DNA of 39,756 bases from assembly GCA_005878955.1 (NCBI GenBank), contig VBMI01000094.1, forward strand, positions 1-39,756, read 5' to 3'. This DNA is from Methanobacteriota archaeon. Its GTDB lineage: Archaea > Thermoplasmatota > Thermoplasmata > RBG-16-68-12. Shown here one piece after another: positions 6,901-34,166 of this stretch; positions within the stretch are counted from its first letter, which is position 1, and every line of letters starts with the position of its first letter. The position numbers and the translations under genes were made by a program. Below the pieces are notes generated by a model. That model worked only from the letters and a program-made list of their open reading frames with translations, ran no database searches and was not told the DNA's origin.

Positions 6901-9258
6901 GCCCTCGACGTGGACCGTCCACTCCCCGGCCGCGGGGGACGTCACGATGACGCCCTCGACTGGGTTGCGGGTGTCGAAGCTCCCGGTGTTCGCGACGCTC
7001 TGGCCCTGGACGTAGATGCCGAAGACGTTCCCCTTGTACACGTCCCCCGCGGGGCTCGTGACTTGGAGGTTCAGGTTGTTCACGAGGGCGGGGTTCGCGT
7101 TGGGGAATGCGGGGTAGTCGCTGTACCCCATGACGATCCGGAGCGGGGCCGCGTTCGAGTTCACGCGGATCTTGTAGTCCGACGACTGGCCCGTGGAGAG
7201 CCCCGTGAGCTGGTCGACGACCCAGAGCTTCCGGGCCCCCTCCGTCGCCGGATTCACATACAACGCGTCGTCGAGGACGAGGCGCCCGAACCCCTGCGCG
7301 TCGTTCGGGTACGTGTTCTCGGGCGTCTGGTTCGACCCGGTGCCCGTCATCTTGCGGGAGCCCGCCATCAGGATCGCCTTCACGAGCGCCGCGCTCGGGT
7401 CGAACCCGTTCGGCGCGATCGCCGAGCCACTCGGGTAGAAGCCCTGGACGAAGTACTGGCGCACGAGCGCCGCCATCCCCGCCGCGAGCGGCGTCGAGTG
7501 GCTCGTGCCGGAGAAACCGGTCGTCGCGCCCGTGTTGAGGTTGTCCGTGGGGTTGCCGCTCGAGCTCGCGGTGTTCCCGGAGAAGAACGTCATGATGTCG
7601 GGCTTGCGCCGGCCGTCCGCGGTGGGTCCGCGGCTGCTGAAACCAGAAACCGCCTCTTGCCCCGGGTACGCGTTCGCGCCGCCGATCGTGACCGCGGACT
7701 TCGAGGTTCCCGGGCTCCCGACGGTGAACAGGCCGGACCCTCCGTTGCCCGCTGCGAAGAAGATCGCCATGTCCGGGTGGTTCCAGATGAACCGGTCGAC
7801 CATCATCGCCTGGATGTCGTACCCGTTCTCGCTCGAGCCCCAGCTGTCCGAGTGGATGCGGGAGCCGTTCCCGTACGCGACGCTGAAGAGGTCGTCGTAG
7901 TTGTCGGGGATGTACGTGAGGACGTCCCCGACCTGCGGGGCCGGGCAATCCGTCGTGGGCGCGGTGGAGCCGATGTCCTCGATGATCAACTTCGCGTCGA
8001 GCGCCATCCCGTCCTCTGTGCTCGTGCCGACAGTGGCATCCGAGCCGCCCGCGTTCCCGGACGTGGACGTCCCGTGGCCCGACGGGCAGAAGCCGTTGTT
8101 GATGCTGTCCTTGTGTGCCTCCGGGTCCCCGCCGGTCCACGGGTCGATGCCCTTGTACGGGCTCATCGGGATGTACCGGACGAGCTTCCGCCGCGTGAGG
8201 TCCGTCGTGTTGTAGATGGAGCCGGGGCCCGCGATGCCGCCCTTCTGGATCGTCGCCGTGGACTCCCGGAAGAAGTTGCTGTCGAAGTCGATCCCGGTGT
8301 CGCCCATCGTGATGATCTCCCCGGCGCCCGTGATCCCGTTCGACCAGAGCCGCCGTCCGTTCGGATCGGATGGGGCGAGCCCGGTCTGGAGCAGCGCCTG
8401 CGCGCTGTAGTCGAGGATGCGGGGCAGCTCCCACGGTTCAACCCACATCACGGACGGCATCCGGGCGACGGCGACGAGGAGGCCTGCGTCGAAGCGCGCG
8501 CGTACGACGCCCATCTCGCCGATGGTGTAGACCGAGAGCACGCCATCTTGCGGCGAATCGAAACGCACGGGGGCGATTCCCTGGAGGGAGAGGGAGCGGA
8601 CGACCTCGTCTGCGTCCGCCGTATCCGCGGTGAGGATCTGGACCGTGACGGTCCCTGCCGCGCGGGCGAGCCCGGATTGGATCTTGTACCCGGGCTGGTA
8701 CGCGCCGACCCAGTCCACGAACCGCAGGCCGGTCACCGCGTCCCTCGTCGGGCCGTCCATGGAGACGAGGAAAGCATCGTTCGGGATTGATTGGAGGACC
8801 CGCGCGCCGACGGACTGGAGCCCCTTCAGCCACTCCACTTTCACAGGGCCGATGAGGTGGACCAGGTACAGGGACGAAGCAGCGGTGGGGGACGCACGAA
8901 GATCGGGACGAACGGAAGGTTCCCCCTGCCGGACATCGAACCGGACGGGCTCGAGGTTGATCCAGTGGGAGTCCTCCTGTGAATCGACGTTGATCCCGCT
9001 CGCCTCGAACCGTGCGATTGTGGACGGCGTCGCCTCGACGAGGACGAAGGAGTCGTACGCCTCGACGATGTCCGCGCCCGGGGCGATCGCCTGCACTTGC
9101 GAGGCGGGTGCGTGGACGAGGACGGAGACCGGTGCCCCGTCGGAGGCGGTGGGGGCGATCGCGAGGAGCGTGGGGATTCCGGCGGTCAGGACGAGCACGA
9201 CGGCGAGCACCTCAGCGATTCGAACGGGCTTCAACCTCCCACCTATCCATCCGTCCAA
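3982..9258 (-). CDS. Large secreted subtilisin-like (S8) protease with multiple beta-sandwich domains
   Basis: This 1758-residue exported protease has a signal peptide at about 13-35 and a long prodomain to about 290. The S8 catalytic domain follows, with Asp320 (MGDTGID), His395 (GHGTS), oxyanion Asn505 (AAGNGG) and Ser586 (GTSHSTP). A subtilase C-terminal beta-sandwich lies at about 700-800 and an FN3 domain near 926. A Rossmann-like block at about 1006-1106 (DVLLVIGDASF, then YLDAGGRLFLTSHDAAW) resembles class-I amidotransferase folds. Ig-like domains lie near 1266 (VVSPNGGETF) and 1373, and another FN3 near 1510. Two C-terminal modules contain LVSFP. There is no C-terminal anchor, so it is probably released or cell-associated by binding. 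The start is TTG 9256-9258; an in-frame TTG eight codons later is possible. It likely acts in extracellular protein degradation that feeds peptide uptake (inference). Confidence 0.9.
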   Translation of the reverse strand: MDGWIGGRLKPVRIAEVLAVVLVLTAGIPTLLAIAPTASDGAPVSVLVHAPASQVQAIAPGADIVEAYDSFVLVEATPSTIARFEASGINVDSQEDSHWINLEPVRFDVRQGEPSVRPDLRASPTAASSLYLVHLIGPVKVEWLKGLQSVGARVLQSIPNDAFLVSMDGPTRDAVTGLRFVDWVGAYQPGYKIQSGLARAAGTVTVQILTADTADADEVVRSLSLQGIAPVRFDSPQDGVLSVYTIGEMGVVRARFDAGLLVAVARMPSVMWVEPWELPRILDYSAQALLQTGLAPSDPNGRRLWSNGITGAGEIITMGDTGIDFDSNFFRESTATIQKGGIAGPGSIYNTTDLTRRKLVRYIPMSPYKGIDPWTGGDPEAHKDSINNGFCPSGHGTSTSGNAGGSDATVGTSTEDGMALDAKLIIEDIGSTAPTTDCPAPQVGDVLTYIPDNYDDLFSVAYGNGSRIHSDSWGSSENGYDIQAMMVDRFIWNHPDMAIFFAAGNGGSGLFTVGSPGTSKSAVTIGGANAYPGQEAVSGFSSRGPTADGRRKPDIMTFFSGNTASSSGNPTDNLNTGATTGFSGTSHSTPLAAGMAALVRQYFVQGFYPSGSAIAPNGFDPSAALVKAILMAGSRKMTGTGSNQTPENTYPNDAQGFGRLVLDDALYVNPATEGARKLWVVDQLTGLSTGQSSDYKIRVNSNAAPLRIVMGYSDYPAFPNANPALVNNLNLQVTSPAGDVYKGNVFGIYVQGQSVANTGSFDTRNPVEGVIVTSPAAGEWTVHVEGANVPAGPQGFAVVAVADLDLGYGDIRLDKKVYSESDTIRIEVHDANAGAPLVANVRSTVEGTPEPVTLPETAPGSGVWRGQINTAFGDPAADGILQVSEGGSIEAVYSDTNPAHDAVATATVDASAPSISNVRAEGITNAGATIKWTTNEPANSRVWYGTNPASLGGPATDTGLVTSHALPIVGLQTDTLYYYDVESADQLGHSTRDANGGAHYSFRTTAAGDVLLVIGDASFPSDRIPMYLDALTNSAWTFNEWDVAVKGDPPLAALQPYKVVIWQTGLEQYPQLSDAQRPLLKSYLDAGGRLFLTSHDAAWSLCSPSGNPYYSPARCSWFRSTLKNSWQVDPSDWTQNIGIAGDPISGGYTGGVNYLGHRSGGFGDEVRNLCGTTGGSCTQAGATLTYVWRDSGGVASPDNVGTKWVSTGNNGTAGVGVWGGTPSKTVAFYFEFTGINFVSGVVSNPARTDVLNRTIIWLIGRDHPAVQVVSPNGGETFTTSPIPITWSRQTFGGTNVASQTLYYSDNSGQGWNLIGTTPLPTDTSYSWDVTGLPNGGRYRVRVVVQDNGVPFLAGADASNSDFAINRPGGDTLGPLIWPGSISIVPNPIVRGSLVTFRATADDTTRGNSAIAAAELFAAATPGPDGTGQAMNPADGTFNAVGEDIAWTTSAPWPVGTQCFWIHARDASGNWGPHESRCTTIASTAGTDTVPPLQATISAGALAGATFNNVVLTWQKASDEGLIGGTVLYRVMRATALGGSYVQVGSDIPAPGTYSYTDVGAGDQAASLTYFYLIRTVDAAGNTADSTSRASKFSMDLPTGVSLVSFPVTQSDLRFATVFQTLLAPSPLRGGWTYDSATGTWLTFSGGRTAGQNSLRIVGQGQGVYVDLAVADRFTVAGVIPVSTRISLSSGWNLVSFPSFGTMTAGQAMTATGATSILAFDPTAVPGQTRVMAAGDLLVTGRGYWIQVALPANWNVPGQ

Positions 9259-17903: not shown

Positions 17904-18308
17904 GTGCCCCGCTTCGTCCGGATTTCTCAGAGCGAGTTCGTGTCCGTCCGGAAGCTGTACGAGAGCGTGATGTCGTACGCGTGCCACGGTCTGTTCTTCC
18001 GGGAGGGCGTCACCCTGGCGGACGAGATCGTGACCGAGGTCGAGAGGGACGAGGACGTCCTGCAGGGCGCCCGCAAGGTCCTGATCTCCCGGGGGTGGGT
18101 CGAGGACGTCTCGTTCACCTCGGGCGGCGCCCGGGTGCGGGGGTCCGTCGAGGCCTTGGCGGGCGGCGAGGGCGAGACGTGCCATCGCCTCCGCGGGATC
18201 CTGTCCCGCCTCACGGAGATCGCGAGGAAGGAGCGCTCCCGGCTCGCGGAGGTGGAGTGCGTGAGTTCCGGGGCAAAGGAGTGCGTGTTCACCGAGGAGG
18301 GTAGCTGA
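17904..18308 (+). CDS. V4R-like ligand-sensing domain protein
   Basis: This 134-residue protein has an alpha/beta layout and a C-terminal AEVECVSSGAKECVF segment that fits the V4R (4-vinyl reductase-like) signature of two Cys in a C-x-x-x-G-x-x-x-C-x-F pattern. V4R domains bind small hydrophobic ligands or act in bacteriochlorophyll reduction and vesicle-tethering (TRAPP/Bet3-like) contexts. Here it is short and stand-alone, so a sensory role is likeliest. The GTG start is leaderless by promoter spacing. Its TGA shares one base with the ATG of the roadblock gene (TGATG), so the two are translationally coupled and probably act together. The fold call is moderate because only the C-terminal motif is clear. 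Confidence 0.65.
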   Translation: MPRFVRISQSEFVSVRKLYESVMSYACHGLFFREGVTLADEIVTEVERDEDVLQGARKVLISRGWVEDVSFTSGGARVRGSVEALAGGEGETCHRLRGILSRLTEIARKERSRLAEVECVSSGAKECVFTEEGS

Positions 18309-18661
18309 TGCCACTGGACAGGATGCTGAAGGAACTTCGCGACCGGTGCGGCTCCCAGGCCGCCGCGGTCGTGAGCCGGGACGGACTCGTGATCGCGGCA
18401 GACATGCCGGAGAACATCTCGCGGGAGACGTTCGCGATCATGTGCGCGACGATCCTGGGGGCCGGGATGACCGCCGCCACGGAGCTGCGCGTCTCCTCCC
18501 CCACCCACATCGTCCTGACCTCGAAGGAGACCCGGATCCACATCCTCGAGACGGGCCCGCGCGCCCTGATCGTCCTCGTCGTCCCGCCGGGCCGGAGCGA
18601 CGCGGAGATCGCGGCGGCTGTGACGCCGGTGATGGAGGAGGTCCGGCGCGAGATCGGGTAG
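18308..18661 (+). CDS. Roadblock/LC7 domain protein
   Basis: This 117-residue protein matches the roadblock/LC7 fold throughout its length. It has an N-terminal helix (LDRMLKELRDRCG), the AAAVVSRDGLVIAADMP strand-turn-strand, the long central helix with FAIMCATILGAGMTAATEL, and the C-terminal LIVLVVPPGRSDAEIAAA segment. These proteins dimerise and regulate small GTPases or scaffold signalling complexes. No small GTPase gene lies in the window. It overlaps the V4R-like gene by one base, and the pair resembles the sensor-plus-roadblock modules common in archaea. The next gene, a membrane winged-helix regulator, has its own promoter but might be a signalling partner. Confidence 0.88.
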   Translation: MPLDRMLKELRDRCGSQAAAVVSRDGLVIAADMPENISRETFAIMCATILGAGMTAATELRVSSPTHIVLTSKETRIHILETGPRALIVLVVPPGRSDAEIAAAVTPVMEEVRREIG

Positions 18662-18718
18662 GCCGTGCTATTTTCTGGCAAACCCCTAAATACGGCACAA
18701 ACCGTTCTACCAAACGAC

Positions 18719-18726
18719 CTATATAC
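18719..18726 (+). promoter_or_regulatory. TATA box(es) of the membrane regulator gene
   Basis: CTATATAC at 18719-18726 predicts a start near 18748. A second candidate, CTAAATAC at 18686-18693, lies 33 bases upstream. Confidence 0.55.
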
Positions 18727-18744
18727 GCCAGGTCCCGTTTCCGG

Positions 18745-19749
18745 ATGGGGAGCAGACCGCCGATGAGGGCCGCGTGGCTCGCGTTATTCGGCATACTGGC
18801 GATCGCCTGCGCCGCCGCCGCACTGTCGACGGCGGCCCGGGCCGACCCGCCCTCGATGGACGGGGGAGGCGACCCGCAGGTCGTCCTGCTCGCGGACATC
18901 CGGTCGGACTTCAACGTCATGGAGGCGGGCTCGACCCTCCCGATGCGCGTGGTCGTCGTGGAACAGCACGGCGTGCCCGTCCCCGGGGCTGTAGTGGAGC
19001 TCTCGGGGGCCGGCGTGACGTTCTCCCCTGCGATGGGGACGACGGACGCGGACGGCGTCTTCCGGTTCCGCCTCACCGCAAGCCCGACCCTGGCGACGGC
19101 GAAGACGACGATCACGGCGACGGTCACGATGCCCGGCGCGATGACCGGGACGGACCGCTTCGACCTCACGGTCGCGCGATCGCCACCGCCGGTCCAGATC
19201 GTGCCCCAGAGGGAGGCCGCGACGGTCGGCCTCGGGGCGATCCTCGCCGCGGCGCTCCTAAGCACGGAGATCGGCCGGTACGGGGCGTTCAAGGCCCTCG
19301 TGTTCCCGCTGTACTCGCGCCTCAAGAAGGAGGAGGTGCTGGATCACTTCGTCCGCGGGCAGATCTACGGGTACATCGTCTCCCACCCGGGCCAGCACTA
19401 CAACTCGATGCGGCAGGACCTGAAGGTGACGAACGGCACGCTGTCCCATCACCTCCGGACCCTCGAGATGATGGGGTTCATCAAGTCCCACCGGGACGGC
19501 GTGTTCAAGCGCTTCTATCCCGTCGAGGTGTCCGTGCCCCAGGACCGGGGCGTGAAGCTGAGCGACCTCCAGGCGAGCATCCTCGAGATGATCCGGCCCG
19601 GGTCCGGCCCGACGCAGGCGGACATCGCGGGGCGGCTGGCCGTCACCCAGCAGACCGTCTCGTACAACCTCCGGACCCTCAGCCGCGAGGGGGCGATCCG
19701 GATGGAGAAGGACGGGCGGAACACACGGTACTATCCCCCCGCCGCGTGA
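18745..19749 (+). CDS. Membrane-anchored regulator: Ig-like ectodomain plus two winged helices
   Basis: This 334-residue protein has an N-terminal signal or anchor (about 9-30) and an extracellular bacterial-Ig-like domain at about 50-150 (VPVPGAVVELSGAGVTF, TTDADGVFRFRLTAS). A membrane helix follows at about 165-183 (VGLGAILAAALLSTEI). The cytoplasmic part carries two winged-helix domains, about 200-262 (SHPGQHYNSMRQDLKVTNGTLSHHLRTLE) and about 275-330 (GPTQADIAGRLAVTQQTVSYNLRTL). It could pass a surface signal directly to DNA without a kinase, an architecture known from Thermoplasmatota. ATG 18745 coincides with the TATA-predicted start; ATG 18763 is an alternative. It sits directly before the membrane-AAA operon, which makes it a candidate regulator of that operon (inference). 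Confidence 0.85.
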   Translation: MGSRPPMRAAWLALFGILAIACAAAALSTAARADPPSMDGGGDPQVVLLADIRSDFNVMEAGSTLPMRVVVVEQHGVPVPGAVVELSGAGVTFSPAMGTTDADGVFRFRLTASPTLATAKTTITATVTMPGAMTGTDRFDLTVARSPPPVQIVPQREAATVGLGAILAAALLSTEIGRYGAFKALVFPLYSRLKKEEVLDHFVRGQIYGYIVSHPGQHYNSMRQDLKVTNGTLSHHLRTLEMMGFIKSHRDGVFKRFYPVEVSVPQDRGVKLSDLQASILEMIRPGSGPTQADIAGRLAVTQQTVSYNLRTLSREGAIRMEKDGRNTRYYPPAA

Positions 19750-19772: not shown

Positions 19773-19780
19773 GTTTTATG
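19773..19780 (+). promoter_or_regulatory. TATA box of the membrane-AAA operon
   Basis: GTTTTATG predicts transcription from about 19802 and so supports GTG 19817 as the first start. The ATG at 19778 lies inside the box and cannot be used. Confidence 0.6.
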
Positions 19781-19816: not shown

Positions 19817-21073
19817 GTGAGGTCCCCGCGCCTCCTGTACATCGCGCTCGGCCTCGCTCTGGCTGGGGTGTTCGTGCTCCAGGCCTCGGGGGAGGCCGTC
19901 GCGACGCGGACGATCACGTATCCGTTCATCGCGGGCTCGTTCGTGATCCCGATGGACGCGCAGCAGACGGACGTTCTCCATGCGTTCGGGCTGATCCACG
20001 TGATCCTCCGGCAGGGCGTCCCCGTGTACCGGGTCCTGACCCCTCCCGCGGTCCTGTTGAAGGTCGATCCGCTCGCGCCGCCGTCTGCGTTCGACGGGGG
20101 CCCCGTCCTCGTGTGGGGGACGTACCGCGACGAGTTCCTCGCGGCGGCCGCCCAGTTCCCCACGGTCTCATACGCCCGCCTCGCGGAGGTGCAGGTGCTG
20201 GACCACGTCCTGCCGATCAAGCGGGCCACTACCGTGCTCATCCTGAAGGGGGGCTTCGACTGGGGTCGGACGCAGGACCTCCTGGACCAGCTCGCGATCC
20301 CGTACGACATTCGGAACACGACGGACGTCGTCGCCGACCCCTCGATCCTGTTCGGGTACGCGCTCGTCGTGGACGACTGCGACGGGTGGAACGGGGTGTA
20401 CCCTGGGGACGCCGTGGCGGACGCGTTCCGCGCCTTCGTCGGCGCCGGCGGCCACGTGATCTTCACGGACATCGCGCTGGAGGACATGGAGGTCCTCTTC
20501 CCCGGACACGTGTCCCTGTTCAACGCCCGGAAGGGCACGTTCAACGCGACCGTCCACACGTTCGGCGACGCGCCCTCCCAGTACTTCGGGCCCACGACGA
20601 TTTCCGTGTACACGGAGATCGACGGGATCGTGATGGGCGCCCCGTTCGCGGAGGGGGTGAACGTCCTGGTCGACGTGCCGAAGTACCCGGCGGGGTTCCT
20701 CACGACCGCGTACCGGGCCCTTGCCGCATACTACCCGTATGGGAACGGTACGGTCGAGGGGATCGCGTATCACCCCTACGAGCAGACGGGCGCCGGCCAC
20801 TCGTTCTCGTCCGTCCTGTACGGGAACACGTTCGTGTCCGCGGTCCCCTTCCTCCCGCCCGCGCCTCCACCGGTGCCCGTCGCCCTCGGCCTCCCGACAC
20901 CGCCGCCCGCGCCCCCGGTGCCGCCGCCTCCCCCGCCACCTCCGAGCTTGCCCGTCGTGAACCTCGCGTACGCGGGCTACCTGTTCTCGGGCTTCGCCGG
21001 GGTCGGGGTCACGGACGCGGTCCGGAACCGCCTGAGGCTCCGCACTCGGGAGAAGATCGCCGTGAGGGTGTGA
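19817..21073 (+). CDS. Secreted or membrane-anchored protein with amidotransferase-like fold and Pro-rich stalk
   Basis: This 418-residue protein starts with a clear signal peptide (RLLYIALGLALAGVFVLQA). Residues about 130-240 alternate strands and helices (TTVLILKGGFDWGRTQDLL, GYALVVDDCDGWNG, FVGAGGHVIFTDIALEDM), like the class-I amidotransferase-type fold seen in DUF4350/GldG-type proteins; no catalytic Cys is evident. A proline-rich stalk at about 345-380 leads to a hydrophobic segment (LAYAGYLFSGFAGVGV) and a basic tail, which suggests a C-terminal anchor. GTG 19817 is chosen by signal-peptide quality and promoter position. It is the first gene of a tight operon, one base from the next start, that includes a membrane-bound AAA+ protein. 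Function is unknown. Confidence 0.72.
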   Translation: MRSPRLLYIALGLALAGVFVLQASGEAVATRTITYPFIAGSFVIPMDAQQTDVLHAFGLIHVILRQGVPVYRVLTPPAVLLKVDPLAPPSAFDGGPVLVWGTYRDEFLAAAAQFPTVSYARLAEVQVLDHVLPIKRATTVLILKGGFDWGRTQDLLDQLAIPYDIRNTTDVVADPSILFGYALVVDDCDGWNGVYPGDAVADAFRAFVGAGGHVIFTDIALEDMEVLFPGHVSLFNARKGTFNATVHTFGDAPSQYFGPTTISVYTEIDGIVMGAPFAEGVNVLVDVPKYPAGFLTTAYRALAAYYPYGNGTVEGIAYHPYEQTGAGHSFSSVLYGNTFVSAVPFLPPAPPPVPVALGLPTPPPAPPVPPPPPPPPSLPVVNLAYAGYLFSGFAGVGVTDAVRNRLRLRTREKIAVRV

Positions 21074-21074
21074 G

Positions 21075-21959
21075 ATGCGCCTCGCCATCGCCCTCCTGGC
21101 GTGTCTGGCCCTCGTGGCGACCGTCGTGTCCGTCGCGTCCCCGCCCGCGCGCGCGACGTGGCCGTCCCCCGTCTTCGAGGAGAACCTCACCGTGGAGTGG
21201 AGCCCGCTCCGGCCCACGGCGCTCGATCGCGTCACGATCGTGATCCGGACGATCGCGCCGAACACGTTCATCAAAGGGGCGACCGTGTACCTCTCGATCA
21301 CGAGCCCGGAGAACGTGACGGACGGTCCGTTCCCGAACCCGATGGTGATCGGCAACCCGCCGACGCAGGCTACCTTCGGGGTCCGCGCGTATCCGAACGG
21401 CACCACGATGGGCTTCTACTTCGTCGCGTGGGACTACGACAACGATGTCGTGACGAGCCACGCGTACAGCTACCGCGTCGAGGGCGCGCCGGAGTTCGGC
21501 TGGAAGCATCCGACGTTCGAGGAGAACGTCGCGGTGACCGTGTTCCCGCCCATCCCCCAGCCGCACGACCCGGTCACGGTCTCGATCCGAAGCCGCGAGC
21601 CGGATGTCCGCATCGGCGGGGCGAACCTGTACCTGAAGTTCATCTACGGGACGGACCCGCCGCAGGCGGGCGGGTTCGTGATGGCGTACGTGAACACGAC
21701 GGACCTCAGCGCCACAATCCCAGGGTATCCGCCGGGGACCCAGGTCGTGTACTGGATCCTCGCGTGGGACAAGGACGTGGACACGATCGGCTCGCCGTTC
21801 TACGCGTACAACCTGTCCGTCGACAAGTACACTCGTCACGAGAACCTGCCGTTCCCGCCCGTGGAGACGGTCGTGGGGTACTCGTTCGGCCTCGCGATCC
21901 TCGTGCCCATTTCTGTGTACTTCGTGGACGCGAGACGGAGGCGGAGGTCGGGCCGATGA
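21075..21959 (+). CDS. Membrane-anchored protein with two duplicated extracellular beta-domains
   Basis: This 294-residue protein has a signal peptide at 1-27 and two homologous Ig-like domains at about 29-135 and 142-250. A membrane helix follows at about 265-284 and then a cytoplasmic tail, DARRRRRSGR. The repeats share P-x-FEEN, a P-x-x-P-x-x-x-D-x-VT-x-x-IR strand, a GA-x-x-YL strand and a W-D-x-D turn (VAWDYDNDVV and LAWDKDVDTI). The acidic turns could bind calcium. It would display both domains outside the cell with only a short tail inside. Its ATG is two bases after the previous stop, and its TGA overlaps the ATG of the AAA gene (ATGA), so stoichiometric co-expression is likely. Family not recognised. 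Confidence 0.78.
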   Translation: MRLAIALLACLALVATVVSVASPPARATWPSPVFEENLTVEWSPLRPTALDRVTIVIRTIAPNTFIKGATVYLSITSPENVTDGPFPNPMVIGNPPTQATFGVRAYPNGTTMGFYFVAWDYDNDVVTSHAYSYRVEGAPEFGWKHPTFEENVAVTVFPPIPQPHDPVTVSIRSREPDVRIGGANLYLKFIYGTDPPQAGGFVMAYVNTTDLSATIPGYPPGTQVVYWILAWDKDVDTIGSPFYAYNLSVDKYTRHENLPFPPVETVVGYSFGLAILVPISVYFVDARRRRRSGR

Positions 21960-24661
21960 CGGCCCTGGATACCGCGGTGCCGAAGCGCCGCCCGCGGATC
22001 GGCGCGACAATCTCGGACCGGGTCCGGGGCTTGGGCCTCAAGCTCCCCGCCCTCCAGGCGATCTGGGTGAAGGAACGCTCCCACCCCGTCCTCGTGAAGG
22101 GCGCGGCGTTCTTCGCCCTCGGGGCGACGGGCTTCGCGTGGATCCCGTTCTATCCGTGGTGGGCGATCCTGTTCTTCGCGTTCGTGATCGGGGCCCTCGC
22201 CCTCCGCTTCCCGCTGTTCTCGCTGATCTCCATGGGCGTCCTCGTGTCCGCCGCCGCAGCCGCCCAGATGGCGGAGTTCGGCCTCTTCTTCCTCGTCTTC
22301 ACCCTTGTGGTCTCGCTCGTCTCCCTGTTCGACTGGCGGTTCGGGTACCTCGTGTTCGGCTCCGTGTTCCTCTCCCTGCTCGGGGCCCCGTTCCTCCCGC
22401 CGCTCTTCGCCGCGGTCGTGTACAGCCGGTTCCTCGCGGTCGCGGCGATGGCGGCGTCGGCGACGTTCCTCTCCTTCCTCGTGACGTGTGGGAACGTGAC
22501 CGTCGCGGGCCTGTTCGTGGGCCCCCCGCACGGGACCAGTTTCATGGTGTTCGGGACCGCCCCGCGGCCGGACTGGACGCCGGGGGACCTCGGGGGCGCG
22601 CTCTCCTCGATCGGTCTCGCGAACCCGGACGTGATGTCGGGCCTGATCGCATCGAACTTCGGCGCGTCCCTGGTCCCGCTCCTGGAGGTCGCGCTGTGGT
22701 GCGGGGCGACGTTCCTCGTCGCCGAGCTCGCGCGGCGGAGGGACACCATCGAGAACTGGGTCCGGATGGCCCTCGCGGCGGGAGGGGCCCTCGCGGCGGG
22801 GTACGTCCTGTCGAGCCTCGCCCTGGGCGTCCCGATCCCGCTCGAGGCCGCGCCCGTCGTGCTCGGCGCCTTCGGGCTGATCGCGGGGACGACGGCGGGG
22901 GGTTTCCTGGGGAAGGAGGCGTTCCGGGAGTACTTCCTGGGCCAGACCGCGACGACCGTCGGCCGCCGGCTCGCGGACCTGCCCGAGGCCCGCTCGACGA
23001 AGTTCTCGCTCGTCGGGGGCCTCGCGGACGTGAAGGCGGACCTCCGGGAGTCGATCCTCGTCCCGCTCAAGAAGCCGGACGTCGCCGCCGCGTACGGGAT
23101 CGCCCCGCCGCGGGGGATCCTGCTCTTCGGCCCGCCGGGCTGCGGGAAGACCCTCCTGATGTCCGCCCTCGCCGGCGAGCTGAACGTCGAGATGTTCACC
23201 GTGAAGTGCTCGGACGTGATGTCGAAGTGGTACGGGGAGAGCGAGCAGAAGATCGAGCAGCTCTTCCGCACGGCGAAGGAGCGGCGCCCCGCGATCATCT
23301 TCTTCGACGACATCGACGCGATCGCGAAGTCCCGCGACCTGTACGCGGGGGACGACGTCACCCCGCGGCTCCTCGGGATGATCCTCTCCGAGATCGACGG
23401 CCTCGACAAGAGCCCCGGGCTGATCATGGTCGGGACGACGAACAAGCCCGAGCTCCTCGACTCCGCCCTCCTGAGGCCGGGCCGGTTCGACAAGATCATC
23501 TACGTCCCGCCCCCCTCGAAGGCGGAGCGGCTGGAGATCCTGGACGTCCACCTGCGGGGCCGGCCCGCCACGGGGGACGTGGACCTCGCGGGCGTGGCGG
23601 ACCGCACGGACCGGTTCTCCGGCGCGGACCTCGCGAACCTCGTGACGGAGGCTGCGGTCCTAGCGATGAAGCGGTCCCTCTCGAGCGGCGAGACGGAGCC
23701 GATCGACCGGCGGGACTTCCTGGAGGTCCTGCCGAAGGTCAAGCCGAGCATCAGCCTTGCCCAGGCGGAGGAGTACGCCCGCCTCCGGCTGATCTACGAG
23801 CGGAAGATGCACCACCTCGAGCGGGCGGCGGAGGAGGTCGGTTGGGCGGACGTGCGGGGCCTGGAGGACCTGAAAGCCTCCCTTCGGGCGACGATGGACC
23901 TCGTGTTCGCGAAGGGCGGGGCCCGGGCGGACTTCCGGCTGAAGGCGTCGAAGGGCGTGCTCCTGTTCGGCCCGCCGGGGTGCGGGAAGTCGTACCTGAT
24001 GAGGGCGGCGGCGAACGAGCTCGGGGTGCCGATCCAGGGGATCGAGGGGCCCTCCCTCCTCTCCGCGGGGCGCGATGGCGGCGCCCACGTCAAGGAGATC
24101 TTCTACATCGCCCGGGAGAACGCGCCGTCCGTGGTGCTGTTCGACGACATCGACCTCGTCGCCTCTGTCCAGGATCGGAGCCCGGACGCGCGGAACCTGC
24201 TCTCCCAGTTTCTGGCCCAGCTCGACTCGATCGGGGAGGCGGAGCGCGTCCTCGTCGTGGCGACGACGAACCGACCCCACGTCCTCGACCCCTCCCTCCT
24301 CCGGCCCGGGAGGTTCGACACGATGTTCTACGTCGCACCCCCCGATGCGGATGTGCGGCTCGTCCTCGTCGAGTCCGCGTTGCGTGGCGTCCCGACGGCG
24401 GGCGTGGACCGCGCCCTCCTCGCGGGGCTCTGCCACAAAGCCGAGGGATTCTCGAGCGCGGACGTCCTCGCCGCCGTGGACGAGGCGAAGCTCCTCGCGA
24501 TCCGTGAGGCCGCGGGGGCGATCCGCCCGGCGCACCTCGAGGCGGCGTTCGGCCGCGTGCGGCCCTCGGTGACCCCGGAGTCCCTGGGGTGGTCCCGCGA
24601 GTTCATCCGGGCGCACAACGTGCGGCTCCCGATCGAGCGGCCGCGGGAGGCGGGGCCGTGA
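21956..24661 (+). CDS. Polytopic membrane protein with two Cdc48-like AAA+ ATPase domains
   Basis: This 901-residue protein has about eight to ten membrane helices in residues 45-320. Two classical AAA+ domains follow, in Cdc48/VAT order but with no Cdc48 N-domain and no protease. D1 has Walker A GPPGCGKT (Lys398), pore loop KWYGES (424-429), Walker B IIFFDDID (Asp451, Asp452) and LLRPGRFDK carrying the arginine fingers. D2 has GPPGCGKS (Lys678), Walker B VVLFDDID (Asp730, Asp731) and LLRPGRFDT, but GRDGG where the aromatic pore loop should be. Both rings have Asp at the usual catalytic Glu of Walker B. It probably forms a membrane-tethered hexamer that pulls on or extracts proteins. The start overlaps the previous stop, and GTG of the next gene overlaps its TGA. 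Confidence 0.92.
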   Translation: MTALDTAVPKRRPRIGATISDRVRGLGLKLPALQAIWVKERSHPVLVKGAAFFALGATGFAWIPFYPWWAILFFAFVIGALALRFPLFSLISMGVLVSAAAAAQMAEFGLFFLVFTLVVSLVSLFDWRFGYLVFGSVFLSLLGAPFLPPLFAAVVYSRFLAVAAMAASATFLSFLVTCGNVTVAGLFVGPPHGTSFMVFGTAPRPDWTPGDLGGALSSIGLANPDVMSGLIASNFGASLVPLLEVALWCGATFLVAELARRRDTIENWVRMALAAGGALAAGYVLSSLALGVPIPLEAAPVVLGAFGLIAGTTAGGFLGKEAFREYFLGQTATTVGRRLADLPEARSTKFSLVGGLADVKADLRESILVPLKKPDVAAAYGIAPPRGILLFGPPGCGKTLLMSALAGELNVEMFTVKCSDVMSKWYGESEQKIEQLFRTAKERRPAIIFFDDIDAIAKSRDLYAGDDVTPRLLGMILSEIDGLDKSPGLIMVGTTNKPELLDSALLRPGRFDKIIYVPPPSKAERLEILDVHLRGRPATGDVDLAGVADRTDRFSGADLANLVTEAAVLAMKRSLSSGETEPIDRRDFLEVLPKVKPSISLAQAEEYARLRLIYERKMHHLERAAEEVGWADVRGLEDLKASLRATMDLVFAKGGARADFRLKASKGVLLFGPPGCGKSYLMRAAANELGVPIQGIEGPSLLSAGRDGGAHVKEIFYIARENAPSVVLFDDIDLVASVQDRSPDARNLLSQFLAQLDSIGEAERVLVVATTNRPHVLDPSLLRPGRFDTMFYVAPPDADVRLVLVESALRGVPTAGVDRALLAGLCHKAEGFSSADVLAAVDEAKLLAIREAAGAIRPAHLEAAFGRVRPSVTPESLGWSREFIRAHNVRLPIERPREAGP

Positions 24662-24954
24662 CTCCGTTCGAGCTCGGGCTCCTCTCCCTGGTGGGCGCCG
24701 TCTTCGTCGTCGCCGTCGTCGCCCTCCGGTTCCCGCGCGGGCGGCGGGAGTGGCCGCTGGACGCCCGCCAGACCGCCTGGCTCCTGATCAGCGGGCTCAC
24801 GGGCATCCTCGTGTTCGCGCTCCTGTATCTCGCGACGCGGGAGGTGCGGTGGCCCGCCGCCCCGACGACGACGTTCGTCGCGGTGTCAGCCGCCCTCGCG
24901 CTCCTCCTCGGGGTCGCGCTCTTCCTCCCCCAGGGCCTTCGCGCGCGACCGTGA
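24658..24954 (+). CDS. Small three-helix membrane protein
   Basis: This 98-residue protein is almost entirely hydrophobic. Three predicted helices lie at about 5-21, 39-58 and 69-88, with a basic loop (RFPRGRREWPLDARQ) between the first two, so the loop is probably cytoplasmic. No family is recognised. GTG 24658-24660 overlaps the stop of the AAA gene (GTGA), so it is the last gene of the operon and probably coupled to it. A role as accessory subunit of the membrane AAA complex is inference from position. Its last 69 bases overlap the end of the convergent beta-helix gene. Confidence 0.68.
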   Translation: MTPFELGLLSLVGAVFVVAVVALRFPRGRREWPLDARQTAWLLISGLTGILVFALLYLATREVRWPAAPTTTFVAVSAALALLLGVALFLPQGLRARP

Positions 24955-26874
24955 GCGCCACGCGACCGCGAAGAGGCCCACGGCGAGGACGACGAGGGAC
25001 GAGACCCAGACCGGGGTGAGGTCCACCCGCCGCGGGGCGCTCTCCATGTCGAACGTAAAGACGTACGTGCTCGGGAGCGGGTTCCCCGCGAGGTCCGTGG
25101 CGGTGTCCCGCACCTCGACGAAGTACGTCGCCCCGTGCTCCGCGTCCAAGATGGCGAAGCTCACCTCCCGGCCGTCCGCGCTCCACTCGAAGTCCCCGAC
25201 GCGGTACCCGAGGACGGTGACCGCCGCCTCCGTCGTCGACGGGTCCATCGCCTCGCTGAACGTGACCGTCACGCGGGAGCCGAAGCGCACCCCGACGGAG
25301 TCTGCCAGCGGGCTCGTGCCGACGACCCGCGGCGGCGTGCGGTCCGTCTCGTAGAAGATCTCCGGATGCGTCGCGGACATGTTCACGATCCGGGGCGTGT
25401 CGCGGAACGCCCGCGAGGGATGGTCGACGGAGACCTCCACGATGGAGAGGGTGAGGGTGGGCGGGGCCGTCGGATCGGAGACGAGGCTGAGGACCCCGTA
25501 CGCGGCGGGGGTCCACCGGAGCCAGCCGTCCACGTCTGTCATCCCGCCCGCGATCTCCGCGCCGTCCTGCGTGATGCGGACGTGGGCACCCGCGATGGGC
25601 GCGGAGGCCTCCGAGAGGGTCCTCACGTGCAGGAAGTTCTCCACGGTGAGGGAGGACCGCTGGTCCGTGAGGTTCACCGCGTCGAGCCGGAGGTCCGTGT
25701 TCAGGGAGACGACGTTCGACACGCTCGTGAGGAGGAACTCGTTGCTCGAGTTCGCGAGGGTCGCGTTCACGACCGTGAGCGAGCTGTTCGCGGCGTACAC
25801 GAGGGCTCGGTTGTTCTGGAGGCGCGGGCCCGCCACGGTGACGTTCACGGCGTCGTAGAAGGTGAGGAGCCCCTGCTCCGTCGCGTTCCCGGTGAAGCCC
25901 GCCGAGCGGCCGGAGTCCAGGTCGACGCCCGCGAGGACCGCGTCGCGCGTCCGGTACCGGTACAGGGTGTCCAGCGGGACGCCGTTCACGACGTTCCCCC
26001 GGGAGAGGCCGAGGGTCCGCTTCGAGTCGTACGGGATGTCCACCCCGACCCCGTTGTTCCGGAACACGTTGTCCCGCAGGGTCGCGGCCGCGTCGAACAG
26101 GAGGAGCCCGTCCCCGCCGTAGTTCGCGAGGCCGTTCCCCTCGACCGTGTTGTTCGCAAGAACGGGGTCGGCGCTCAGGACGAGGACGCCCACCCACCCG
26201 TTCCGGATCGAGTTGTTCTCGATGCGGGGCCGCCCGCCGAGGTACACATAGATTCCGAAGTAGTTGTCCACGAGCGTGTTGTTCCGGATCACCGGGTCGG
26301 CTTCCTGGGTGATGATCCCGACGCGCTGGTTGAACAGCTGCGTCTGGATGTGATTGTTCTCGATGAGGGGCGCGGCGTTCGGGCCGATGACCTGGATCGC
26401 CCGGAGGCCGCTCTCGAGGATCGTGTTGTTCGCGATCTTCGGGGAACACTGTCGGACGTCGATCGTCGTGGATCCCCAGGAGAACTCGGTGTATTCGATG
26501 TCGGAGCCGTCGGAGCCGAGGAGCTGGATCGAGACCCAGTCGTTCCGGTCCGGGAAGGGGTCGTTGGAGGTGAACATGACATGAAGGTCCGGACGCCCGA
26601 TGGAGAGGATTCGGCCGTACACGAGGATTGAGTGCGAGGCGGGCGGGGCGGTGTCGAAGCGGACTTGCACACCGGGGTCCACCGTAAGGGTCACACCCTG
26701 CGGAACCGTGACGTCCCCCGTCACGATGAACGGGCTGCCGGAGACGGTCCACGTCGTGTTCCCGGGCAACGTCCCGGACACGAGGGTCGGGCCCGCCACC
26801 GCGGTCCGGGACCAGGGGGCGGGTAAGAAGACGAGGACGAGAACGATGAGGAGAATGACCGCCCCGCGCCGCAC
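24886..26874 (-). CDS. Cell-surface parallel beta-helix protein with SbsA-like domain and C-terminal anchor
   Basis: This 662-residue protein has a signal peptide at 1-28. A right-handed beta-helix (NosD/pectate-lyase-like) at about 40-290 shows the repeated rungs IENNHIQT, IRNNTLVDNYFG, IENNSIRNG, LANNTVEGNG and LRDNVFRNNGVG. Further beta-domains follow, then an SbsA/Big-5-like Ig domain at about 515-610 (PPRVVGTSPLADSVGV, VTFSEAMDPST). A membrane helix lies at about 621-639, and the 23-residue charged tail is cytoplasmic. Such surface proteins bind or modify polysaccharides, but no catalytic residues stand out. TATA GATAAATAG at 26897-26905 puts transcription at GTG 26874, so it is leaderless. 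Many N-x-S/T sequons suggest glycosylation outside the cell. Confidence 0.86.
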   Translation of the reverse strand: MRRGAVILLIVLVLVFLPAPWSRTAVAGPTLVSGTLPGNTTWTVSGSPFIVTGDVTVPQGVTLTVDPGVQVRFDTAPPASHSILVYGRILSIGRPDLHVMFTSNDPFPDRNDWVSIQLLGSDGSDIEYTEFSWGSTTIDVRQCSPKIANNTILESGLRAIQVIGPNAAPLIENNHIQTQLFNQRVGIITQEADPVIRNNTLVDNYFGIYVYLGGRPRIENNSIRNGWVGVLVLSADPVLANNTVEGNGLANYGGDGLLLFDAAATLRDNVFRNNGVGVDIPYDSKRTLGLSRGNVVNGVPLDTLYRYRTRDAVLAGVDLDSGRSAGFTGNATEQGLLTFYDAVNVTVAGPRLQNNRALVYAANSSLTVVNATLANSSNEFLLTSVSNVVSLNTDLRLDAVNLTDQRSSLTVENFLHVRTLSEASAPIAGAHVRITQDGAEIAGGMTDVDGWLRWTPAAYGVLSLVSDPTAPPTLTLSIVEVSVDHPSRAFRDTPRIVNMSATHPEIFYETDRTPPRVVGTSPLADSVGVRFGSRVTVTFSEAMDPSTTEAAVTVLGYRVGDFEWSADGREVSFAILDAEHGATYFVEVRDTATDLAGNPLPSTYVFTFDMESAPRRVDLTPVWVSSLVVLAVGLFAVAWRSRSRAKALGEEERDPEEEREGG

Positions 26875-30079: not shown

Positions 30080-31750
30080 ATGAGGCTCAGGACGTACCTG
30101 ATCCGAAGGGCGATTCACACGGTGATCACGCTACTCGTGGTCCTCGTGCTGCTGTTCGTGATCTTCCGTCTGATGCCCGGCGACCCGACACGGTTCTTCA
30201 TCGCGCCGGGCCAACCTCCTCAGGTGCGGGACGAGATCTGCGTGTCGTTCGGCCTGTGCAAATGGGTGAGCGCCCCCGGGAACGGGTATCAGGGGCAGAT
30301 CCAGGCAGGCGCGGACGGCGCGTACAATGTGACCGCCTTCGTGAACGACACGGCGGGCACTCGGTGTGGAGCGAATCCTTGCAACTACACCTTCGTGTAC
30401 AACAACTTCCCCCTTGAAAGGGACCAGAGGAATGGCCATCCCGGGGTCGTCGTGACCGAGGTGACGCTTGCGAAGGCGGGTGGGATTGCCAGGCCCAGTC
30501 TCCCGGATGCGGCCCCGGGAGACACGATTACCGTCAGGGCGAAGATAGTCATCGATTCGATGCCGGCGTCCTCCCTTAGGGTGTTGAAGCCGGATAACGT
30601 GACGTGGATTTTCCTTGGCGCGCCACAGACGGATTCGACGCCCAGGTACTTTTACTGGACCTTCGTCGCCCCCGACCGTGGAACCTACTGGGGCGTGATC
30701 ACTGCCCGGAACGCAACGCTCACGGAGAACTTCACGTTCGGCTTCGCGGCGAGCCCCCCCGTCCCTGGCTTCGACCTCGTCGAGGGGAAGTTCTACGGGA
30801 TCCGACCGTCCTTCCCGCAGAACGTCGCTGTCCTCAGCGTGAACGTCACGGCCCGCGCGGCGCCAATCCGGAACGTGACCGCGAACCTCGTGTCGCCCGG
30901 CGGCTTCCCGCAGGTCGACATCCACCTCCGCCACCCGCTCCAGGTCGCCCGGAGGAGCCTCGCCGAGCAGTTCGTGCTCTACTTCATCAACATGCTCTCG
31001 GGGAACTTCGGCAACTCGTTCTACACGAAGCGGCCGGTGATGGACGAGATCTCGGTGCGGATCGGGCCGACGCTCCTCCTGTTCGGGTCCGCGGTCGTCA
31101 TCTCGTACCTCCTCGGCGTCCTCCTCGGCGCGATCCTTGCGTGGCGCCGCGGGAGCAAGATGGAGCTGTCGGCAATCGTCGTCAGCCTGTTCTTCTATTC
31201 CATGCCCGTCTTCTGGTTCGGACTCGTCCTCCTCTGGTTCTTCGCGTTCGACCGACGCTGGTTCCCGCTCGGCGGCATCGGCGGGTTCGACCCGAAGACC
31301 GGCTTGGCCCTAAACGGCTTCGCGTTGGTCGGCGACATCCTGTGGCACATGGCCCTCCCGCTGGGGAACCTCGTGATTCTGGGCCTCGCGGGACACGTCC
31401 TGCTGATGCGGAACAGCATGCTCGAGGTAATGGGCGAGGACTACATTCTCACCGCGAAGGCGAAGGGGCTCAGCGAGCGGAGGATTATGTACAGGCACGC
31501 TGCCCGGAACGCCCTCCTTCCCGTCGTGACGGCGTTAGCGATTTCCATCGGCGGGGTGATTAGCGGAGGGGTTCTCACGGAGACGATCTTCTCGTGGCCC
31601 GGGATGGGCTTCTACCTCGTGGCCGCGACCCTCCAGCAGGACTATCCTTCCGTGCAGGCGGCGTTCTTCATCCTCGCGGTCCTCACGATCCTCGCGAACA
31701 CTGTCGCGGACGTTCTATATGCATACCTAGACCCCCGCGTGAGGCTCTGA
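30080..31750 (+). CDS. dppB: Peptide ABC transporter permease (DppB/OppB-like) with large ectodomain insertion
   Basis: This 556-residue membrane protein is a DppB-type permease; typical family length is 310-340. The first helix lies at about 11-31 and is followed by the family motif MPGDPTRFF. From about 58 to 290 there is an inserted extracellular region with Ig-like strands (ITVRAKIVIDSM, RYFYWTFVAPDRGTYWGVI, VAVLSVNVTARA) and several N-glycosylation sequons. The canonical core resumes with LAEQFVLYFINMLSGNFG and five more helices, including the EAA-loop segment YILTAKAKGLSERRIMYRHA that docks the ATPases. The C-terminus YAYLDPRVRL is typical. The next gene starts one base after the stop. 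The pore is unchanged, so transport is expected; the inserted domain may contact the anchored binding protein. Confidence 0.93.
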   Translation: MRLRTYLIRRAIHTVITLLVVLVLLFVIFRLMPGDPTRFFIAPGQPPQVRDEICVSFGLCKWVSAPGNGYQGQIQAGADGAYNVTAFVNDTAGTRCGANPCNYTFVYNNFPLERDQRNGHPGVVVTEVTLAKAGGIARPSLPDAAPGDTITVRAKIVIDSMPASSLRVLKPDNVTWIFLGAPQTDSTPRYFYWTFVAPDRGTYWGVITARNATLTENFTFGFAASPPVPGFDLVEGKFYGIRPSFPQNVAVLSVNVTARAAPIRNVTANLVSPGGFPQVDIHLRHPLQVARRSLAEQFVLYFINMLSGNFGNSFYTKRPVMDEISVRIGPTLLLFGSAVVISYLLGVLLGAILAWRRGSKMELSAIVVSLFFYSMPVFWFGLVLLWFFAFDRRWFPLGGIGGFDPKTGLALNGFALVGDILWHMALPLGNLVILGLAGHVLLMRNSMLEVMGEDYILTAKAKGLSERRIMYRHAARNALLPVVTALAISIGGVISGGVLTETIFSWPGMGFYLVAATLQQDYPSVQAAFFILAVLTILANTVADVLYAYLDPRVRL

Positions 31751-31751
31751 G

Positions 31752-34166
31752 ATGCTCTCGCGCCGGCGCTTCCGCGACAAGTACGACAGCTGGAAGAAGC
31801 TCTTCCTCCAGAACTGGACCCTGTTCAAGGCGAGCCGGATCGGCGTCGTCGGGCTCGCGATCATGATCGCGTTCCTGCTCATCGCGTTCACCGTGCCGTT
31901 CATCGGCCTTCGGGACCCCCTTTACTGGCTTGCGCCGGAGTCCGACACGATCTCCGTCCGGGAGTTCTGGGGCAAGCTGGTTACCCCGAGTTCCACGCTC
32001 TACGGATCCAATGCCTCCGTGGACCACACGATTGGCTTCCGGATTAAGCCCGAAGCAGGCGATGCCCGTGCGGATCGGATTTACATCGCGGAAGGGCGGT
32101 ACCTCTTCGCCGTGAGCACGCTGGACTCCCAGGACGCTTGGACCGACGTCCGGTTCGGGTGCGAGTACCCGTACGCATTCAAGGCCGACGACACGATTAC
32201 GGTCGATCCGATCGTCATAAACTACGGCGATTCCCGGGACCCGATGGTGGCGAACATCACTCTGATGTTCGGCACGCAGAACGGGACGGTCTACGTGATG
32301 CAGGACAACGTTGGGAACGCGCGGTGCCCCGTCCCCCTGACTCGAAACCTCGGGTCTCCGATTACTGGGATGGCCGCGTTCAACGGAGACCAGTACTTCG
32401 GAGTGACGTCCAGGGATCGGTTCGTCGTTGGGACCCAGGACGGCCGCCTCTTCGGGTTCACCGTCAACGGAACGGCGGGGGGATTCTACCGGGAGCTCTG
32501 GAACGACACTATCAACCCGTCCGGCGCGCCCACCCCTCCCGCGATCCATCTCGCCGGCGCGATGATCAAGGCGGGTGACTCGGTCCCCCAGTTCGCGCCG
32601 TGTTTCTACCGCTCGGGGGTCGGAGACGACACGCAGAACGGGCGGTCGTTCGTCCTGGGGACCTCGGACGGGTACGTCGTGTCCCTCTGGACCTCCAACG
32701 GGACGCTCCAGTGGGAGAACCCGCTCAGCCAGACGACCTGGTCCAGTTCCCCGGTCCTCCGCATCGGGGCCGAACTTCCGGGGACGCCCCCACTCGTATA
32801 TGCAGCGACGGACGAATCGAAGGTGTTCGTCCTCAACGCGGACACGGGGAAACCCCTCCCCTCGTGGGTCGCGGCGGCCGGTGACATTTCGGGAGGTCTT
32901 CGAATCGTCTATCCGCGAGTCATCGGCCAACCAGATACCGGCGTCTTGTACACGCCCGCAGTGTTCGGGGCGAACATCTTCATCACCTCGAGCAGTGGGT
33001 GGTTGTACAACATCAACCGGGACCCGATCCTCGGGGCGAGCAACCGGATCACGCTGGACTCCGGAGAGGTCGCGTGGGCGTTCCATGACGAGACGATCCG
33101 GCAGAACGCGACCCTCAAGACGTACTTCCGGTCTGGTCCCCACATCTTCGACAACAATAATTACGTCGTCGCGGGCGGCGGATATAACAACGGCACGACG
33201 AACCCTACCGATGACCTCGGGATTGTATATGTGCTCGACACCGCCTCGGGCCGCTTGACGTGGAAGCGGACATTCCCGTACGCGATACTCTCGACGCCGG
33301 TCGCATGGAGGGACCCGGGGGGCGCCCAGCAGCACACGTACCCAGCCGTCTGGTTCGGGACCCGACGGGGCGACTTCTACTCGTACAGCATCGCGGGCGC
33401 GTACCTCGCGCCCCTCCCTCCGAGTTGGGCGCACACTTGTCCTCCTGGTTCGCCGTCCGATTGCGTGCCCGGCCGGTACCCGAGCGGGAACTTCTACATC
33501 CTCGGGACGGACGCCCGCGGGCGGGACATCTTCAGCCAGCTCCTCTGGGGGAGCCGGATCGCGCTCCTCGTCGGGTTTGCGTCCGCGTTCTTCACGATTG
33601 CGATCGGCGTGATCGTGGGCCTCGTCGCGGGGTACTTGGGCGGCCGCGTCGAGTCGATCCTGATGCGGTTCACGGACGTCATCCTCGTGATACCCGGGCT
33701 CCCGCTCGTGATCATCCTCGCCGCCGTCCTCGGGGCGGGGGTCGGGAACATCATCCTCGTGATCGCGATCGTCGGATGGCCGGGCGTCGCGCGCGTGATC
33801 CGCGCGGAGGTGCTCTCCCTGAAGGAGCGCCCGTTCATCGACTCGGCGCGCGTGACCGGCGCGAGCAACGTGCGGATCATGTTCCGCCACATCGCGCCGA
33901 ACGTCGCCCCCCTCGCGTTCCTGTACATGACGTTCGCGGTGAGCGGGGCGATCCTCACGGAGGCGGCGCTGAGCTTCATCGGCCTCGGGGACGTGAACAC
34001 GATCAGCTGGGGGATCATGCTCCAGGACGTGTCCCAGTCGAAGGCCCTCACCGCGTGGTGGTGGCTGCTCCCTCCCGGCCTCGCGATCACGATGATCTCG
34101 CTCGCGTTCTTCCTCGTGGGGCGGGCGTTCGACGAGATCGTGAACCCGAGGTTGAGGAAACGGTGA
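31752..34166 (+). CDS. dppC: Peptide ABC transporter permease (DppC/OppC-like) with inserted PQQ-type beta-propeller
   Basis: This 804-residue protein is a DppC-type permease; typical length is about 290-300. The N-terminal helix (30-53) ends at FIGLRDPLYWLAP. The core resumes near residue 576 with NFYILGTDARGRDIFSQLLW, the normal continuation of OppC proteins. It then runs through five helices and the coupling segment FIDSARVTGASNVRIMFRHI. Between them are about 520 extracellular residues with at least seven blade-like repeats: VVGTQDGRLFGFTV, VLGTSDGYVVSLWTSNGTLQW, VFVLNADTGKPLPSW, IFITSSSGWLYNI, VYVLDTASGRLTWKRTF and AVWFGTRRGDFYSYS. These match PQQ/quinoprotein-type propeller blades. The reading frame is continuous, so it is not an assembly join. 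GTG of the ATPase gene overlaps its stop. Confidence 0.93.
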   Translation: MLSRRRFRDKYDSWKKLFLQNWTLFKASRIGVVGLAIMIAFLLIAFTVPFIGLRDPLYWLAPESDTISVREFWGKLVTPSSTLYGSNASVDHTIGFRIKPEAGDARADRIYIAEGRYLFAVSTLDSQDAWTDVRFGCEYPYAFKADDTITVDPIVINYGDSRDPMVANITLMFGTQNGTVYVMQDNVGNARCPVPLTRNLGSPITGMAAFNGDQYFGVTSRDRFVVGTQDGRLFGFTVNGTAGGFYRELWNDTINPSGAPTPPAIHLAGAMIKAGDSVPQFAPCFYRSGVGDDTQNGRSFVLGTSDGYVVSLWTSNGTLQWENPLSQTTWSSSPVLRIGAELPGTPPLVYAATDESKVFVLNADTGKPLPSWVAAAGDISGGLRIVYPRVIGQPDTGVLYTPAVFGANIFITSSSGWLYNINRDPILGASNRITLDSGEVAWAFHDETIRQNATLKTYFRSGPHIFDNNNYVVAGGGYNNGTTNPTDDLGIVYVLDTASGRLTWKRTFPYAILSTPVAWRDPGGAQQHTYPAVWFGTRRGDFYSYSIAGAYLAPLPPSWAHTCPPGSPSDCVPGRYPSGNFYILGTDARGRDIFSQLLWGSRIALLVGFASAFFTIAIGVIVGLVAGYLGGRVESILMRFTDVILVIPGLPLVIILAAVLGAGVGNIILVIAIVGWPGVARVIRAEVLSLKERPFIDSARVTGASNVRIMFRHIAPNVAPLAFLYMTFAVSGAILTEAALSFIGLGDVNTISWGIMLQDVSQSKALTAWWWLLPPGLAITMISLAFFLVGRAFDEIVNPRLRKR

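Follow-up and report, generated by a model that had tools for sequence, protein, structure and literature searches.

An archaeal gene neighbourhood that joins arCOG01314/DUF4350, vWA and Ig-like proteins with a MoxR ATPase has been proposed to serve secretion or membrane remodelling, and the same authors list arCOG01314 as missing in most Thermoplasmata (Makarova et al. 2015, PMC5898192). Among the MoxR/vWA pairs (NorQ/NorD, RavA/ViaA), plugging of the ring pore has been proposed for NorD (PMC9976466). A survey of the Cdc48 family recorded only one known archaeal member and described plant Spaf-like proteins with a transmembrane region, which is C-terminal (PMC5070193). Here we compare with these systems a four-gene operon found in a 39,756-nucleotide stretch of archaeal DNA, referred to as the window. 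The window is one contig of a 2.15-Mb genome in 180 contigs, estimated to be ~87% complete.

All four genes lie on the plus strand. The first, g1 (19817..21073, with an alternative ATG start at 19778), encodes a protein of 418 aa with a signal peptide, an extracellular domain of ~310 residues, a Pro-rich stalk (20849..20956, poly-proline in the alignment of g1 homologs), and a C-terminal anchor. After a single base follows g2 (21075..21959), whose product starts with a signal peptide and continues with two ectodomain repeats of beta-sandwich type, a single C-terminal transmembrane (TM) segment, and a basic tail. Repeats 1 (21159..21482, residues 29-136) and 2 (21501..21818, residues 143-248) are 34% identical (E=7e-15; 99.9% in profile comparison). 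A 4-base ATGA overlap leads into the gene for a membrane-embedded AAA+ protein of 901 aa (21956..24661), and a 4-base GTGA overlap leads from there into g4 (24658..24954), which codes for 98 aa with three TM segments. A sequence-only reading of the window had described this same tightly packed operon, including the duplicated g2 ectodomain, the three-helix protein, and an AAA protein devoid of both a protease domain and a Cdc48 N-domain, and all of these features were borne out. When searched against Pfam and NCBIfam, g1, g2, and g4 gave no match above the cut-off; g2, which has no Pfam match, may adopt an Ig-like fold.

Directly upstream of g1 (17904-19749) are V4R and Roadblock/LC7 proteins and a regulator composed of a signal peptide, an Ig-like domain, a TM segment, and a winged helix; this upstream V4R/Roadblock/winged-helix set was seen only in the genus of the window. 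On the opposite strand, convergent with the operon and overlapping the end of g4, a gene at 24886-26874 (minus strand) encodes a beta-helix (NosD-like) surface protein with a Big_5 domain and a C-terminal TM segment, and both congeners of the window have large surface proteins at this position. Farther downstream, oligopeptide ABC permeases with large insertions are encoded at 31752-34166 and 30080-31750: the OppC-like protein carries a beta-propeller stretch of PQQ-like type ahead of its permease domain, and in the OppB-like protein an insert of ~280 residues separates the N-terminal part from the permease domain.

We determined the distribution of the system with the membrane domain of the AAA protein as the only query, which kept ordinary Cdc48 proteins out. 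This domain was found in 59 of the 399 sampled genomes of the class (~15%) and in 32 of 392 of the phylum, and it spans 14 families of Thermoplasmatota. The distribution is patchy, since the domain is absent from every one of the 19 genomes sampled from the sister genus within the window's own family. Named relatives identified in this way are Thermoplasmatota/Euryarchaeota metagenome-assembled genomes, two of which are single contigs, 3.2 and 5.2 Mb in size. A non-exhaustive scan of 85,000 species genomes with conserved peptide patterns found relatives only under Thermoplasmatota, Thermoplasmata, Methanomassiliicoccales, and Euryarchaeota labels. The viral contigs searched contained no relative, and the matches in the plasmids searched were all generic FtsH/Cdc48 ones, confined to the AAA part.

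The gene neighbourhood was read in 29 loci around the membrane domain. In all 29, g2 adjoins the AAA gene, either as a separate gene or fused to it; this count includes the split genome G043, in which the contig bearing g2 (L014) extends into the beginning of the AAA gene. A g4 homolog adjoins the AAA gene in 23 loci, and the remaining six all belong to family f15. As separate genes, the order g1-g2-AAA-g4 recurs in families f1, f17, f21, and f25. Operon proteins of the same order in other families are about 30-50% identical to those of the window, and g1 homologs at the same position are 32-39% identical. A search for the same four-gene order in other archaea was the check suggested by the sequence-only reading. 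Judged by this recurring order and by the g2-AAA fusions described below, the gene set is conserved, not a group of chance neighbours. In family f17, a signal-peptidase-I-like protein is encoded directly upstream of g1 (L017:5996-7012, L059:5857-6852, and L078:6137-7258); these proteins have an extra C-terminal TM segment and visible SGSM, IIHR, and GDNN/D motifs, and their profile scores fall below the cut-off. A third arrangement (L019:10560-14692, L067:11066-14616) lacks g1 and has a pair of paralogous g2-like proteins with multiple repeats; within a locus, the two proteins end in nearly the same cytosolic tail, AE(E)EEKR[IV]T[LV]-COOH. In a tree of the motor proteins, loci with a window-type g1 form one clade (83) and third-arrangement loci another (100).

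In nine loci (L015, L016, L062, L072 [the same as L053], L073, L074, L075, L076, and L077), the AAA protein carries g2 as an N-terminal fusion, in a single open frame of about 1030-1430 aa that consists of the g2 ectodomain, its TM segment, and the AAA protein. Because of these fusions, g2 and the AAA protein most likely work as one unit, and their partnership is strongly supported by the sequences. The fusion also bears on topology: with the signal peptide and ectodomain outside, the charged linker should lie inside, so that the membrane domain would cross the membrane an even number of times and leave the AAA ring inside. In the window, the hydrophobic region comprises residues ~45-320 (about 280 residues), with both AAA domains after it, and the polytopic domain with about 10 TM segments maps to 22085..22945 on the basis of conservation and AF2 modelling. 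The AF2 model (pLDDT 76) and the positive charges are consistent with a chain that crosses the membrane ten times and whose long loop following helix 7 is predicted to be outside. The N-terminal region of the AAA protein is thus a conserved polytopic membrane domain, as the sequence-only reading had supposed. Both outcomes that this reading had named as refuting it, a gene set without conservation and an N-terminal region outside the membrane, were sought and did not appear. It has no Pfam match and no PDB sequence match, and a Foldseek comparison of its model with the PDB returned nothing below E=0.36. A likeness to the Rh/ammonium-channel fold was considered and rejected (TM-score, 0.24 or less). 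The membrane region is a family of its own. At the opposite end of the protein, the AAA proteins of L015 (Pfam, 1.6e-5) and L016 (by alignment) have a SAP domain after a Pro-rich linker. SAP domains bind nucleic acids in other proteins.

The two AAA domains differ in how well they are preserved. D1 with its lid (23015..23755) retains its motifs in 29 of 29 homologs: Walker A GxPGCGKT (23129-23152 in the window), the pore loop S[K/R]WYGESE (W-Y at 23228-23233), the sensor-1 asparagine, the RPGR arginine fingers, and the family-typical DDV[T/S]xR stretch. D2 (23849..24595) has an intact Walker A in the window and no aromatic pore loop; in many lineages its Walker A or B is lost (GKK, GKR, EH, SD), and in L074-L077 the domain is missing and the rest of the system is retained. 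Because the D1 motifs never vary, and because many lineages have only a degenerate D2 or none, the motor is D1, with D2 as an optional part. In L073, an open frame of its own (7932-9023), located after the fused D1 protein and before g4, encodes a D2-like AAA domain; this may reflect a split gene or a frameshift. In the window protein, the Walker A motifs are at residues 392 and 672 and the Walker B motifs at 447 and 726. Both Walker B motifs (23294-23317 and 24131-24154) read D-D, not D-E; for D1, this holds throughout the window's clade, and D-E is found elsewhere. A D-D Walker B may slow hydrolysis.

The sequence-only reading had counted two Cdc48-like rings. Two AAA domains are indeed present in the window; the second is not constant in the family, and neither groups with its Cdc48 counterpart. 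In a tree that included the two Cdc48 proteins of the same genome and other AAA proteins, D1 formed its own clade (bootstrap, 83), as did D2 (100), although the deep nodes are weak. "Cdc48-like" therefore denotes resemblance, not membership. The resemblance to Cdc48/p97/VAT lies in the type II AAA class and in the two tandem domains of the window protein, with VAT D2 as the closest solved match of D1; the differences are that a membrane domain replaces the N-domain, that D2 is dispensable, and that D1 and D2 fall into clades of their own. Cdc48_N was not among the best 25 Pfam matches of the window AAA protein, in which residues 45-330 form the polytopic membrane domain. In favour of a plain Cdc48 paralogue with chance neighbours, CDC48 has the top score for the AAA domains among NCBIfam models. 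However, the score for TIGR01243 is 421 bits against a cut-off of 802.65, the Cdc48 N-domain is missing, two canonical Cdc48 proteins are also encoded in the genome, and the conservation of the operon together with the fusions speaks directly against coincidence. We regard this explanation as scarcely credible.

A functional parallel is offered by FtsH and Msp1/ATAD1, which also have an N-terminal membrane part, a cytosolic AAA ring beneath it, and an aromatic pore loop. Unlike these proteins, which have 1-2 TM segments, the present one has about 10, lacks the M41 protease, and has an extracellular partner or a fused ectodomain. No peptidase was present among the Pfam matches listed, no room for one is left at the C terminus, and TIGR01241 scored 370 of 600 bits. 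The resemblance to Msp1/ATAD1 would be functional only, through an N-terminal anchor beside an AAA ring with an aromatic pore loop. An unfoldase-type D1 beside the membrane and the lack of a protease domain might be taken to indicate general membrane-protein quality control, that is, a protease-free FtsH/Msp1 equivalent that would extract any damaged membrane protein and deliver it to the proteasome. Such a general role would not predict a distribution as patchy as 59 of 399 genomes of the class, dedicated ectodomain partners, or a surface protein in the operon, and no evident HbYX-type motif was seen in the AAA C-termini that we read; we therefore consider it improbable.

The sequence-only reading had assigned g1 an amidotransferase-like fold, which we could not substantiate. 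The window protein had no Pfam match at E<=10, its profile gave only chance matches to PDB sequences, and the AF2 model, built from three close homologs, reached a pLDDT of only 32 and was not used; the similarity of the ectodomain to DUF4350 is weak (hhalign probability 18%, E=0.0013 over 61 columns). The ectodomain probably has an alpha/beta fold. The signal peptide and Pro-rich stalk attributed to g1 are present, whereas the free, secreted form is not what the sequence suggests: the protein looks membrane-anchored via its C-terminal segment. In eight loci (L015, L062, L072, L073, L074, L075, L076, and L016, the last partly masked), the g1 slot is occupied by a vWA protein. The MIDAS motif is visible in those vWA-type sequences that reach that far, and the L015 protein matches Pfam VWA at 4.6e-16. 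Neither Pfam nor hhalign found a vWA domain in the g1 of the window, and no relation between the two types of ectodomain was detectable (hhalign probability, 0.3%). Their last ~32 residues, which comprise the TM segment and tail, are nevertheless common to both (hhalign, 98.5% over 32 columns); in the window, this anchor with its basic tail (YLFaGFaG...R.KIAVR) spans 20960..21070. In each genome, the g1 tail had a single significant match, which invariably lay in this operon. The anchor is thus shared and present once per genome while the ectodomains are unrelated, from which we infer that it is the machine's own part and that the ectodomain is exchangeable. The replacement of vWA by another ectodomain on one anchor points to the anchor as a motor-docking part. 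A function of the tail as a general sorting tag was rejected because of its single significant copy per genome. In their MIDAS-bearing vWA partner, the vWA lineages recall the MoxR/vWA pairs NorQ/NorD and RavA/ViaA. Pore plugging in the manner of NorD is not expected here, because the vWA domain is extracellular, across the membrane from the ring.

A candidate client was found upstream of g1. In six of the six vWA loci with a readable upstream gene (L015, L053/L072, L062, L073, L074, and L075), the next gene upstream, which reads in the same direction, encodes a giant Ig-repeat protein and either overlaps its neighbour or is separated from it by no more than about 60 bases. The giants range from about 1,700 to >2,400 aa, several being cut by contig or stretch ends, and consist of Ig-like repeats, one C-terminal TM segment, and a low-complexity cytosolic tail. 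In L062 (433-7002), this tail contains a helix-hairpin-helix/RNAP alpha-CTD-like domain. No giant protein is encoded in the window operon. In the vWA lineages, the giant Ig-repeat protein appears to be the best client candidate. The system could instead be read in terms of sensing or force transmission, in which the ectodomains would bind ligands or neighbours, the ring would relay the signal, and the SAP and helix-hairpin-helix domains would be cytosolic outputs. The MIDAS-bearing vWA domains, the SAP domain in the AAA proteins of L015 and the closely related L016, and the helix-hairpin-helix domain of the L062 giant are consistent with such a role; yet SAP and helix-hairpin-helix domains occur in few lineages, and D1 retains all threading residues, which leaves this reading very unlikely.

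The sequence-only reading had drawn a loose analogy to MoxR operons with DUF4350-type proteins. The likeness turned out to be closer than that: related lineages have a vWA protein in the g1 slot, with a BatA match below the cut-off, and a predicted archaeal system has an equal parts list with a MoxR motor (PMC5898192). Like that arCOG01314 system, the present one would unite in one neighbourhood an extracellular anchored protein of probable alpha/beta type, putative Ig-like proteins of the surface or membrane, an AAA+ protein, and, in the related lineages, a secreted vWA protein; the two differ in the motor, which in the arCOG01314 system is MoxR/COG0714 and not membrane-embedded. Bat operons (MoxR, the vWA proteins BatA/BatB, and BatD) likewise combine an AAA+ protein with membrane-anchored extracytoplasmic vWA and ectodomain proteins. 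Their AAA+ protein is of a different class; here the motor is fused to a membrane domain and an ectodomain, and no DUF58 protein was noticed. AAA_3, the MoxR class, was not among the best 25 Pfam matches of the window AAA protein, whose motor matches PF00004 and CDC48-type models. In genome G000, AAA_3 matches are on contigs other than that of the operon. MoxR genes are present in most genomes with the system, next to DUF4350 in G424 and G080. The idea that the system is a simple MoxR replacement was rejected on these grounds; since MoxR genes coexist with it, the MoxR system and the membrane-AAA system are not mutually exclusive.

These similarities bear on the main rival explanation, a chaperone that helps to export, fold, or assemble large surface proteins, in the way suggested for the arCOG01314 system and for Bat operons. 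It draws on the parts list of Makarova et al. (flavodoxin-like anchored protein, vWA, Ig-like, and AAA+), on the match of the vWA subunits to BatA profiles below the cut-off, and on the signal-peptidase-like gene directly before g1 in three f17 loci. The motor is not MoxR, though, its pore-loop motif is like that of unfoldases that pull substrates in, and the signal-peptidase neighbour is confined to one family. We consider a secretion or assembly function rather unlikely.

The reading that we prefer, to which we give close to an even chance, is that the four genes encode one membrane complex that acts as a dedicated, protease-free Msp1/FtsH-like dislocase or remodeller of surface proteins. 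A complex of g1, g2, the AAA protein, and g4 is supported by the gene order, the g2-AAA fusion, the invariant D1 motifs, the dispensable D2, the conserved g1 anchor, and the giant protein upstream in the vWA lineages. According to this model, the ~10-helix domain would anchor the AAA protein in the membrane, both termini being cytosolic, and the D1 ring, presumably hexameric, would lie on the cytosolic face immediately below. Outside, surface proteins would be recognized or held by the g1 ectodomain and by the Ig-like domains of g2, and g4 would be a small membrane subunit. ATP hydrolysis by D1 would drive the aromatic pore loop to pull on the cytosolic tails or membrane segments of the surface proteins bound by g1 and g2, a direction of pulling that we propose by analogy to FtsH and Msp1. 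Consequently, the surface proteins would be taken apart, extracted, or released. Two features of the window count against this model: its operon encodes no giant protein, and the Walker B motif of its clade reads D-D. A broader generalization, which we offer with more reserve as possible but rather doubtful, is that the family represents a class of trans-membrane AAA+ machines, in which a D1 motor and a new polytopic fold continuous with Ig-like ectodomains would exert force across the membrane on giant proteins via exchangeable receptors.

Our search of the open-licence literature found no description of such a system, and the gene set is apparently undescribed. There is precedent for the parts list, an AAA+ protein with vWA- or Ig-type surface partners, and none that we know of for a motor built into the membrane with a fused ectodomain. 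To our knowledge, there is no other AAA+ protein whose single chain combines an ectodomain with a membrane region of about ten helices and a threading ring. The arCOG01314/Bat-type parts list may thus be one that different motors can drive. We also know of few ways in which archaeal cells can remove or remodel surface proteins from inside. The system described here probably remodels or removes large surface proteins, and it provides a concrete, testable candidate for how archaeal cells may carry out such removal or remodelling from within.
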